Source: Thalassobacillus devorans MSP14 | GTDB lineage: Bacteria > Bacillota > Bacilli > Bacillales > Halobacillaceae | Direction: 5' to 3' | Length of the DNA: 64,000 bases | Assembly (NCBI RefSeq): GCF_000496835.1 | Contig: NZ_KI543236.1 | Coordinates: 990,589 to 1,054,588 of the forward strand | In this document: piece by piece, positions 3,265 to 28,983 of the stretch | Numbering within the stretch: the stretch's first letter is position 1 | Layout: every line of letters starts with the position of its first letter | The notes under the pieces: model-generated | What the model was told of the DNA's origin: nothing | The model's database searches: none | The model's input: the letters and a program-made list of their open reading frames with translations, nothing else | Made by a program: the position numbers and the translations under genes

Positions 3265-5192
3265 GCGTGCCTAGCAAGCCGTTAATTGCTTATTGGTGAA
3301 AGTCCAATCCGAGTAAGTGCCAAGACGCTCGGTAGCTGACAGGTAACTGGTAGAGAAATCTTACGGTTAGAGCCCTGTGCCAGCAAACGAACAGATCGTA
3401 ACATTAAGTGAATCCTGCCGCTTCGTCAAGAGCACCTGCTCATGCAGGACAAGGAGAAGTCGAACCCCGGGCGTACGGGTGAAGACCATGGAAGATACGA
3501 AGACCTTGGAAACAGTATTGAAGAATCTCCCGGAGTAGAGGGAGCGATATGTTCGGAAAGGAATTAACGGAACTAGGGAGACCCTCCTCATCACTTCGAA
3601 AGAAGTAAAGCAGAAACCTATAAGTGCGGAAAAGCATGAAATGGCGGATGGATGAGAGGGAGTCGGAGGAGGTCATAGTACCTACAATGACTACGACAAC
3701 ATAACGTAGTCTAGGAAAGGACCTCTACTTTGTTCATATGTCAGAAGGAGGTAAGAGTCAGTGAATGTCAAGAAAATGACTAACTACACCAATAAAGTAA
3801 AAGCTCGAGAACTCTGGAAGACGTTATATCTTTGTGCCAAGGAAAGTCCTACACGTAGATTTCATGCACTATATGACAAGATTTATCGTCCTGATATTTT
3901 ATGGGAAGCATGGCAACGAGTGAGGCGCAAGAAAGGTGGTGGAGGCATCGATGGCCAGACAATCCAAGAGATTGTCGAGGACTATGGAGAGAAAAAGTTT
4001 CTCAATGAACTTTACCTGGAGTTAAAGGATAAAAAGTATCATCCAAGTCCGGTTCTGCGAACCTACATTCCGAAGGATGATGGAAAGAAGCGTCCCTTAG
4101 GAATTCCAACCATTAAAGACCGTGTGGTACAGATGGCGACGAAATTGGTGATTGAACCGATATTCGAAGCTGATTTCCATGATTGTTCGTTTGGTTTTCG
4201 ACCGAGAAAGAATGCCCATCAAGCCATGGCGAAAATTCGGAAAGCTAGTAAGAAAAGTTTTTGGGTAGTCGACGTCGATATCCAAGGCTATTTCGATAAC
4301 ATCAACCAAGAAAAATTGATGAAACTAGTGGAGCAACGAATTAACGATAGAAGGGTATTAAAACTTATCCGTAAATGGCTGGACGCAGGGGTAATGGAAG
4401 AAGGAAATGTAAGAAACCCTGTCACGGGCACACCGCAAGGTGGGGTGATTTCCCCTCTCCTCGCAAATATCTATCTAAATACGATGGACCAATTATGGGA
4501 GAAAAAGTTCAGTCATTTAGGAGAGATCATCCGTTATGCGGATGACTTCGTCATCATGTGTAAGACCAAACAACAAGCACTGGAGAGCATTCGTGTCATA
4601 CAGGCAATTATGGGGAAACTGGACCTATCACTGAACACCAAGAAATCAAAGCTCGTTAACATCTGGAATGATATCGATGGCTTTGACTTTCTAGGATTCC
4701 ATAACCGCAAATTACCGATTCGAAGAAAAGGTAGGCCGACCTTATATGTCATGAGTCATTTCCCAAAACGAAAAGCCATGAAGAGAATGCGCGCTAAAAT
4801 CAAAGCGTTCACGGAACCAAGAGGTAAACTACAGCTCGACATCCGTGAACTAGTCGATGGTTTGAACCGAAGGTTGCAGGGGTTTAAGAACTACTACCTC
4901 ATATCTTCAATCGCCAAGAAGTGGCTGAAGCGTATCGACTGGTATGTACTTAAACGTCTAGCCTTATTTAACAATAAGAAAAGGCAACGCAATAACCTTC
5001 AGGGTCATATGGACGAGGTTACAAATCAAGTCAAACATAGCTTAGTGAAATTAGCTGATTAAGGCCCCGTAAAGCCAAAGAAAGAAGAACATCGGAAAGC
5101 CGTATGAGGGAGAACCTCACGTACGGTTTGATGAGGGGGAGCTGAAAGTAAAGGGGGAGGAACTCCCCTTTAAAATCAGTTCTCTACTCTAC
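3265..5192 (+). mobile_element. Group II intron with reverse transcriptase ORF
   Basis: A 1928-nt self-splicing retroelement. The 5' end reads GCGTG (consensus GUGYG) and the 3' end is AC (consensus AY). Joining 3264 to 5193 gives CGTCCGCC/CATGGAAAGCGAG, exactly the sequence of uninterrupted copy R4 at 28857-28876. The 5' exon CCGTCCGCC (3256-3264) can pair with GGCGGATGG at 3643-3651 (one G-U pair), a good IBS1-EBS1 candidate. Domain V is visible at 5098-5129 (AGCCGTATG...GTACGGTTT with an AGC triad) and a domain VI-like hairpin follows (AGGGGGAGGAACTCCCCTT). The RT frame is open, so the element may be active. It lies in a palindrome, which recalls class C introns, but I cannot assign the class. 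Confidence 0.9.
3761..5062 (+). CDS. Group II intron reverse transcriptase/maturase (LtrA-like)
   Basis: A 433-residue intron-encoded protein starting at GTG 3761 behind AAGGAGG (3745-3751). It contains the RT blocks in order: [43 protein letters not shown] with the first catalytic Asp, [28 protein letters not shown] with the YADD active site, and [10 protein letters not shown], followed by a basic maturase domain X ([15 protein letters not shown].. [13 protein letters not shown]). No HNH endonuclease domain is present after domain X, which is common in the shorter intron proteins that use nicked or hairpin DNA as target. It would help splicing and carry out retrohoming of the intron that contains it. 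No frameshift is visible. Confidence 0.97.
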
Positions 5193-6799: not shown

Positions 6800-7056
6800 A
6801 TAGACCAGTCGAACGATGACAGGGAGAGTACACAAGCCCGCATGCAGTATGAGCGATTCAGGGATGGTGAAAGCCTGAAGCAGCGACTTGATGGAAGATC
6901 ACCCTCGAGTTTTCCATTCGAAAAGTGGTGAGTAGAAATGGGCGCTTTATCTACGTTACAGATCAACAGAGCGGAATCGGCATATGACAGGCCGGTTCTA
7001 CAAGGGTGGTACCGCGAGATCCTCTCGTCCCTTCCAGGGATAAGAGGGTCTTTTTT
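6800..7056 (+). promoter_or_regulatory. T-box riboswitch (isoleucine) with terminator
   Basis: The T-box sequence GGGTGGTACCGCG (7004-7016), which pairs with the uncharged tRNA acceptor end, is followed by a terminator hairpin (about 7017-7049) and TTTTTT. Upstream is a stem I with the AGGGAGAGTA motif. The likely specifier codon is ATC (Ile) at 6898-6900, in agreement with the downstream ileS. Uncharged tRNA-Ile would stabilise the antiterminator and allow transcription of ileS. Confidence 0.95.
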
Positions 7057-7150
7057 ATACTTTAAGAAAGTTTAACTGTTTTAAAGGATTAAAGTATAAG
7101 AAAAACTTAGGCTTTCGCCATAAGGACTTGGCGACAAGTCAAGTTTTTCT
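7056..7150. repeat. 95-nt double-hairpin element, copy 1 (ileS leader)
   Basis: Starts in the U-tract of the T-box terminator. The first hairpin has 10-bp perfect arms TATACTTTAA / TTAAAGTATA. The second has AGAAAAACTT / AAGTTTTTCT outside and GGCTTTCGCC / GGCGACAAGTC inside. The final 60 nt match 12360-12419 with two changes, both of which keep base pairing through G-U. Its second hairpin ends in a U-run and could itself stop or slow polymerase. It sits 43 nt before the ileS start. Confidence 0.85.
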
Positions 7151-7193
7151 ATTATTATTTTGCAATACTTACAAACTGAAGGAGGAAGCAGCA

Positions 7194-12212: not shown

Positions 12213-12325
12213 GAAGCACCTTTAAGTAAGTCCAGTGAGGCTTAAAAGGTCGCAAACCAGTACGTATCAAGCAATACAAAGATACGTCCACCTCTTTGCG
12301 GTTTTTTAAGCAAAGAGGTTTTTTT
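12213..12325 (+). promoter_or_regulatory. PyrR-dependent attenuator 2 (pyrR-pyrP)
   Basis: PyrR loop AAGTCCAGTGAGGCTT (12228-12243) inside an ACCTTTAAG / CTTAAAAGGT stem. The terminator is ACCTCTTTGC / GCAAAGAGGT (12289-12319) followed by seven T. The 95-nt double-hairpin repeat starts in this T-run. Confidence 0.94.
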
Positions 12326-12419
12326 ATACTTTAATAAATTTAACTTTGTTTAAAGGATTAAAGTATAAGAAAAACTTAGGCTTTCGCCATAAGGACTTGG
12401 CGATAAGCCAAGTTTTTCT
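12325..12419. repeat. 95-nt double-hairpin element, copy 2 (pyrP leader)
   Basis: Same element as at 7056-7150: TATACTTTAA / TTAAAGTATA arms, then AGAAAAACTT / AAGTTTTTCT enclosing GGCTTTCGCC / GGCGATAAGCC. The stems are more perfect here than in copy 1. As in copy 1, it begins in the U-run of an attenuator terminator and ends before the ribosome site, here 58 nt before the pyrP start. Confidence 0.85.
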
Positions 12420-12476
12420 AATTGTTAAAACGCAAGAGTAGATAAAAATGATAGGATTCAAAAGGAGGAAATGACA

Positions 12477-28555: not shown

Positions 28556-28983
28556 ACTCTGTAAAACGTTGTTGATTTTTCATAAGGTGCTTATTCAACA
28601 AAAGGGCCGGATTATGGAAGACTCAGTTTCAAGGTTCTTTACCATAAAAGCGTTAGGGGTGGCTTGGAAACTACTCGCTTTCCAGCTTCATCGCCTAGAC
28701 ACTCGCGACATAAGCAGTCCATCAACGGGAAGAAAGAACACTTCCCTTTTGCTGTTCTGCTTATGCGTGTCGTGTCTCCCAAGGCAATTACGCATTCGTT
28801 TCTTTCCTGCGGGGGACATGGTGAGATCCCGCAAGGCGAAGCCTGAGGAAGCTCACCGTCCGCCCATGGAAAGCGAGTGATTTCCCGGACCTCCAAACGC
28901 TCACCACCGTAACGGAAACAGTTTCTCTCGAAACTGAGCCTTCCATAAAAGGGAGTTTTAATTGTAAAATCAACATTAGAGCC
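28556..28983. repeat. Long palindromic repeat R4 between rpoZ and coaBC
   Basis: Begins ACTCTGTAAAACGTTGTTGATTTTT, the same as the complement of the R3 right end. Outer arms GGAAGACTCAGTTTC (28616-28630) and GAAACTGAGCCTTCC (28930-28944) pair except for one G-U. It contains the 121-nt cruciform insert (28689-28809) and the hairpin GGTGAG..GCTCACC (28820-28857). It is the uninterrupted version of the site that carries the group II intron in R2 (28857-28876). The right end is shortened after AATCAACA. Overlapping reading frames of 80-125 codons on both strands are products of the palindrome. Confidence 0.82.
28689..28809. repeat. 121-nt cruciform insert, copy 2
   Basis: Identical to 2872-2992 at 120 of 121 positions. 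See that entry for the stems. CTTTCC flanks it on both sides (28679-28683 plus neighbours on the left, 28802-28807 on the right). Confidence 0.8.

Follow-up and report, generated by a model that had tools for sequence, protein, structure and literature searches.

The window, the whole stretch of 64,000 nucleotides from Thalassobacillus devorans MSP14 (contig NZ_KI543236.1) that was analysed, contains two copies of a 95-nt double-hairpin repeat, one 5' of ileS (TIGR00392) and the other 5' of a uracil permease-type gene (pyrP). Each copy lies directly after the terminator of a control switch, a T-box leader in the first case and a PyrR attenuator in the second. The features of the two sites are:

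6807-7035, + strand: T-box leader (RF00230), host context only; Rfam
7018-7057, + strand: target of copy 1, the ileS T-box terminator hairpin (stem 7018-7050) and then a T-tract and A (7051-7057); stem scorer and Rfam
7056-7098, + strand: hairpin 1 of copy 1, its outermost pairs drawing on the flanking TA; fold and covariation
7058-7152, + strand: copy 1 of the putative mobile element (TACTTT...CTAT); BLAST and covariance model, orthologous site empty in G001
7099-7150, + strand: hairpin 2 of copy 1, its base formed by an A-tract and a T-tract; fold and covariation
12215-12327, + strand: PyrR binding site (RF00515), host context only; Rfam
12291-12326, + strand: target of copy 2, the pyrP PyrR attenuator terminator hairpin (12291-12318) and then T7A; stem scorer and Rfam
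12325-12367, + strand: hairpin 1 of copy 2; fold
12327-12421, + strand: copy 2 of the putative mobile element (TACTTT...CTAA); BLAST and covariance model, orthologous site empty in G001
12368-12419, + strand: hairpin 2 of copy 2; fold

The target stem of copy 1 is GATCCTCTCGTCCCT/AGGGATAAGAGGGTC, with 7 nt between stem and element, and that of copy 2 is CCTCTTTGC/GCAAAGAGG, with 8 nt. The limits of the element, TACTTT...CTAA (CTAT at the end of copy 1), were set from empty sites and from reading the remaining copies. They place both copies two bases to the right of 7056-7150 and 12325-12419, where a sequence-only reading of the window had put them, and leave its length of 95 nt unchanged. That reading had recognised the double hairpins, which fold with z-scores of -6.8 and -9.0 (0 of 200 shuffles as good), and the 33-nt core, found twice in the window, averages 0.00 occurrences over 100 shuffled windows. 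It was also right about the T-box and PyrR context, now called by Rfam, and about a start in the T-run of a terminator and an end in a hairpin with a U-run. Both differences between the copies in hairpin 2 had been thought to keep pairing; this holds for T/C (GTC/GCC), where a G-U pair becomes G-C, and fails for C/T (GACAAG/GATAAG), which lies in an unpaired bulge of the fold.

The window also contains a group II intron (Rfam D1D4-4, Intron_gpII) at about 3267-5191, with bounds drawn by eye and an RT frame at about 3893-4981. The repeat that hosts this intron is present in intron-free form around 28566-28958, and a second RT of nearly equal score is located at G000:C1:1069017.

The repeat had been described from its two copies in the window, but it is a genome-wide family. 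A BLAST search of the 3.94-Mb genome identified at least 40 strong copies (40 of 93 candidates scored). A covariance model made from 24 of these, with 150 of 2352 candidates scored, gave 67 genome matches at E<=1e-3; at E<=1 the number rises to 87. The flanks of all 67 matches at E<=1e-3 were read; 20 weaker or partial matches were read as well and are outside all counts. The element is about 93-97 nt and consists of two adjacent hairpins. Copies L005 and L006 are 100% identical at unrelated loci, and many decayed copies are present in the genome. Separate models of the hairpins (R2 and R3) matched partial copies only, and no composite with a gene lying between the hairpins was apparent from them in this genome. 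At locus L029, the Rfam BsrC small RNA lies approximately 45 nt downstream of a copy.

Fifteen of the 67 matches are nested in a second repeat (CCCCCGACAAGCTTAAG...CTTAAGACCTCGAGGGGGTAGGCGCTGG), these being L025, L028, L030, L031, L033, L035, L039, L040, L077-L081, L088, and L094. At L077, L079, and L081 the entire composite of second repeat and element is absent from a congener, and the nested copies seem to multiply together with their host repeat. None of the 15 scored a terminator hairpin and they were excluded from the terminator counts, which are based on the remaining 52 non-nested copies.

Both hairpins are conserved as a fold. In a covariation set of 29 copies from 13 genera, with the structure drawn by hand on one copy, 93.5% of the cells pair and 11 of the 33 pairs have changed on both sides. 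This number is reached in 0 of 500 shuffles, and slid controls give 2-5. The covariation score is 0.121 versus 0.073 in shuffles, while for further pair types, a less telling measure, 46 of 500 shuffles reach the observed value. The replacement of TACTTTAA/TTAAAGTA by TACTATCA/TGATAGTA is one example of compensatory change, and in G171 hairpin 2 has been rebuilt. Copy 1 folds at -32.7 kcal/mol on the + strand versus -24.8 kcal/mol on the - strand. Cells with G-T outnumber those with A-C by 93 to 50 in the genome's own copies, which are not independent of one another, compared with 3 to 4 in 12 congener copies and 19 to 17 in 21 copies from other families. As the G-T excess is hardly seen beyond the own copies, this argues weakly at best for a strand preference.

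No terminal inverted repeats are present by inspection, the left end (TACTTTAAGAAAG...) being unmatched by the reverse complement of the right end (TTAGAAAAACTTG...). The layout of the right end, hairpin 2 - TTTTTCTAA|, is equal to that of the target, hairpin - TTTTTTTA|.

Within the consensus hairpin 2 there is a compact alternative hairpin, ACTTGGC-GACAA-GCCAAGT-TTTT, seen for example at 7126-7148 of the window. It is terminator-like and competes with the long stem (-12.1 versus -26.0 kcal/mol, calculated on fragments). The CTTGG..CCAAG core of this hairpin is found without mismatch in 17 of 52 own copies, 11 of 12 congener copies, and 17 of 41 other-family copies. In copies from G340, G281, and G310 (L168, L169, L170-L172, and L181) the linker that separates the hairpins co-varies by eye with the 3' end, in the pairs TAAG/CTAA, TGTG/CTCA, and AAGTG/TTTA. 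This co-change could represent a guide-like pairing for a 3' cut.

The element targets intrinsic terminators and their T-tracts in a fixed orientation. A terminator-like hairpin in the same orientation is directly upstream of 36 of the 52 non-nested copies, against 1 of 52 in a mirror control in which the downstream flank was read in mirror image; the score threshold of 10 was our own choice. A second scorer gave 37 of 52 versus 3 of 52. Among the 22 copies of at least 96 bits, 18 have a scored hairpin, and for two further copies in this class (L006 and L013) a hairpin is visible by eye in the ortholog of the congener. A stem was found for 45 of 64 own and congener copies, with a stem-to-element distance of 7-8 nt in 27 of the 45 and of 6-8 nt in 33. 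Intrinsic termination occurs at about 6-8 nt past the stem. Copies from other families have an upstream hairpin in 21 of 42 cases (mirror 4 of 42), 12 of these 21 being at 6-8 nt.

Of the last 8 nt before the element, at least 5 are T in 42 of the 52 own copies, in all 12 congener copies, and in 39 of 41 copies from other families, where the mirror figures are 13, 3, and 10. The T-tract is thus nearly constant at the targets and the hairpin is the rule without being absolute. The second scorer found no hairpin for 15 of the 52 own copies and for 21 of the 42 from other families, so that the T-tract is perhaps the more important of the two. A few copies (L118, L242, and L255) lie in polypyrimidine tracts that look like a ribosome site read on the complementary strand. 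All non-nested copies have one orientation relative to the T-tract, the left junction is often TTTA|TAC, and the nearest upstream frame of at least 80 aa is co-oriented with the element in 39 of 52 cases. In G538, one copy (L241, G538:C16) is directly behind hairpin 2 and the T-tract of another, decayed copy, so that a copy of the element can itself be a target.

Insertion is precise at the empty sites. Stretches of the closest congener, G001, amounting to approximately 800 kb were read, and 10 of the 52 sites were matched there with less than 300 nt between the flank matches. Six of these are empty in G001 (L001 at ileS, L004 at pyrP, L005, L006, L013, and L091) and four are filled (L008, L026, L036, and L090). 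Where G001 has CTTTTATAT|TGAAAAAA, this genome has TACTTT...CTAA at the bar. For L001 and L005 the sum of the two flanks is the empty site exactly. For L004, L006, L013, and L091 flanks and empty site are about 1 base apart, within the divergence of the genomes; the left flank of L006 is partly masked in this genome. The target-site duplication at the six sites is therefore 0-1 nt, and no gain or loss exceeds about one base. Target hairpins that remain intact 6-8 nt ahead of most elements agree with the empty sites. Two further sites (L034 and L106), with more than 1 kb extra in G001, and five nested copies with little match beyond their host repeat were left unclassed. Across the genus, the ileS site has a full copy in G002, decayed remnants in G003 and G004, and none in G001. 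The same terminator has therefore been hit repeatedly, or a copy has been lost there.

All five Thalassobacillus genomes carry the element, with 67 (this genome), 95, 101, 76, and 55 matches at E<=1e-3, and no match was found in 20 genomes from other genera of the same family. Across the order, matches at E<=1e-4 are present in 53 of 377 genomes, this genome included, and in 33 of 132 genera; copy numbers at this level are lower bounds, with 11 candidates scored per genome. In a phylum sample of 398, two match at E<=1e-6, this genome and G538, which belongs to another class. Plasmid and phage collections had no blastn match at E<=0.01, and two exact patterns searched in viral contigs had none. 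The spread over families is patchy. Together with near-identical copies within some genomes (three in G213 at 97-99%, two in G171 at 98.9%), this points to recent activity and horizontal spread.

Taken from sequence comparison, these features suggest that the element is probably a non-autonomous mobile DNA repeat, with the T-tracts of intrinsic terminators as its target and a single orientation of insertion. At this length it cannot encode an enzyme, which must be supplied in trans. This enzyme would cut T-rich DNA about 7-9 nt 3' of a hairpin. A single such activity, cutting at the target and at the right end of the element, could free the stretch between successive terminator-like sites, which would then be pasted behind another terminator. 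The fold joins both ends of the element and would suit transfer as folded single-stranded DNA, following an HUH/Y1-like logic. Such transfer is our preferred, if unproven, route, as it would account for both boundaries, the orientation, the tandem case, and the missing inverted repeats and target duplications. For the host, the original terminator would stay and a second terminator-like hairpin would be added behind it; in leaders such as that of ileS, the added hairpin would fall between attenuator and gene.

The candidates considered for the mobiliser were each missing from some carriers, in a survey where some assemblies are incomplete and the enzyme may have been lost since. Y1_Tnp occurs in 13 of the 16 carriers, the exceptions being G004, G340, and G281, and in 7 of 11 non-carriers. 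Group II RT is present in 11 of 16 carriers and 4 of 11 non-carriers. RVT_1 is found in 11 of 16 carriers, with no match in G001, G171, G230, G281, and G075. IS110 is found in 13 of 17 carriers and 2 of 8 non-carriers, being absent from G000, G003, G310, and G538. At 10 Y1 and 10 RT loci, a search for element-like ends gave chance-level matches only (E 1.8 and up). The T-tract and the -1 base of the element targets are more variable than expected for the targets of a Y1 transposase. One copy (L228, G213:C5) has a Y1 transposase-like gene within approximately 600 nt, both being on the same strand, and none was near the Y1 gene in the 8 other Y1 stretches examined.

A bolder form of the preferred reading, which we offer tentatively and as less likely than not, is that the integration machinery reads the termination site itself, placing the element at about the end point of the transcript. 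Both limits of the element would be points of this kind, given by the host terminator on the left and by its own terminator on the right, and the moving unit would be the DNA between two consecutive termination points. The enzyme would then be one that is explained by none of the four tested protein families.

An alternative route would be through RNA, the transcript of the element ending at its own terminator and being reverse-transcribed into terminator T-tracts by an RT acting in trans. This bacterial SINE-like case would be akin to the homing of group IIC introns, which insert at intrinsic terminators according to PMC4424553. The shared target class, 3' of intrinsic terminator hairpins, speaks for it, as do the 3' end of the element, which is about where its own transcript would stop, and the better + strand fold of copy 1 with the G-T excess of the own copies. 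A few copies that by eye are truncated on the left exactly at the T-tract (L021, L110, and in G001 L140:14830) fit as well. However, the five carriers listed above have no RVT_1 match, and one of them, G171 (assembly 92% complete), has two copies at 98.9% identity. Losses have no clear 5' bias by eye, L204 and L205 being without the 3' half and L206 and L208 having internal losses. The G-T excess is absent in the congener copies and slight in those of other families. A group IIC intron is moreover a ribozyme with an RT gene, whereas the element has 95 nt and occurs in carriers without an RVT_1 match; no Rfam group II match at the gathering threshold (domain V etc.) covers the element in the window and 60 loci. 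We consider this route unlikely.

It is more improbable still that the element is a selected back-up terminator or mRNA 3'-end stabiliser kept for host benefit, with mobility secondary. Hairpin 2 does end in TTTTTCTAA, compensatory changes keep the fold across families, and the co-orientation of the upstream frame in 39 of 52 cases would suit such a role. This is opposed by the patchy taxonomy, with none of the 20 same-family genomes of other genera having a match, by the many decayed copies and by the empty orthologous sites. An efficient terminator between an attenuator and its gene, as at ileS, should also hurt the host.

The position of the window copies had first suggested an undescribed add-on to riboswitch and T-box leaders, with random intergenic placement as the alternative. 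Neither is borne out. Placement is far from random, and with attenuators called by Rfam at the gathering threshold over the 52 loci, 48 copies are not behind one. The four that are lie behind two T-boxes (L001 and L018), a PyrR site (L004), and a SAM riboswitch (L090). When the proposed check for enrichment was run on the terminators of the same loci, 4 of the 37 with an element and 1 of the 35 without one proved to be attenuators, a non-significant excess on small numbers (Fisher p=0.36, odds ratio 4.1). As background, 140 kb of G001 were scanned with cmscan and yielded no RNA match. Attenuators include an intrinsic terminator and, as far as these data go, are hit for that reason. They are a small minority of the sites, with a modest preference at most given the small numbers, and the position behind two control switches is a by-product of terminator targeting. 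A copy or remnant at the ileS site in 4 of 5 genus genomes would fit a regulatory role, but in the closest relative neither the ileS nor the pyrP site holds a copy, and what is left in G003 and G004 is decayed, making this explanation very improbable.

Equally hard to credit is a classical MITE, derived by internal deletion from a DDE insertion sequence, for example one of the hairpin-targeting IS1182/IS1272 family: IS1272/TnSha1 does enter hairpins, many of them terminators, without target duplication, but according to PMC4923244 it has inverted repeats, cuts the stem and deletes part of it, and inserts in both orientations, whereas the element has no terminal inverted repeats, leaves the target hairpin whole, and is found in one orientation to the T-tract. 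Short length, repetition, and polymorphism between relatives are shared with DDE-derived MITEs, from which the absent inverted repeats and the duplication of only 0-1 nt at the six empty sites set the element apart.

Other known systems resemble the element in part. The ends of IS200/IS605-type elements, REP/RAYT, and Helitrons have no inverted repeats, no target duplication, and hairpins near the ends. An IS200/IS605-derived element would match in all three, but no Y1 gene with matching ends was found at the 10 Y1 loci and three carriers are without Y1. By analogy, the 3' hairpin followed by CTAA may be likened to a Helitron end. The consensus differs from REP/REPIN in having no GTAG or CGTC tag at the foot of the hairpin. 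EFAR of Enterococcus faecalis, which we take to be identical to Efa-1, targets stem-loops, deletes most of the target stem-loop on insertion, and varies widely in size. It is small with two adjacent stem-loops, like the element, which on this general description is set apart by keeping its target hairpin whole and its size nearly fixed. PMC3733652 counts EFAR among MITEs, and PMC2267715 has Efa-1 as a double-hairpin family.

The bcr1 family and similar repeats of the Bacillus cereus group are mobile and intergenic, have a TTTAT motif, and are suspected to use a mechanism like site-specific recombination (PMC6542083). Compared by description only, this motif recalls the left junction of the element, often TTTA|TAC. 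With 147-167 nt (table of PMC2267715), bcr1 is longer, and it is classed among MITEs, defined by inverted repeats in PMC3733652. Bhal-1 of B. halodurans, known here by description only, is a family of 74 nt in PMC2267715. Terminator hairpins as targets and small mobile repeats (bcr, EFAR, REP) are therefore already known. No description of a 95-nt double-hairpin element with precise, oriented, non-destructive insertion was found in the open-access literature searched; one in an older subscription journal is possible.

Small palindromic repeats are common in bacteria, and few have a target rule that is so readable, with fixed orientation, narrow spacing from the terminator stem, and precise blunt ends. 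If the preferred reading of a mobile DNA repeat is true, intrinsic terminators would be a safe harbour for a tiny parasite, and many transcription units, some attenuator leaders among them, would have gained a second terminator-like hairpin. Dozens of empty and filled pairs would be usable for tests of the mechanism, and the question posed would be which enzyme recognises a hairpin plus a T-tract.
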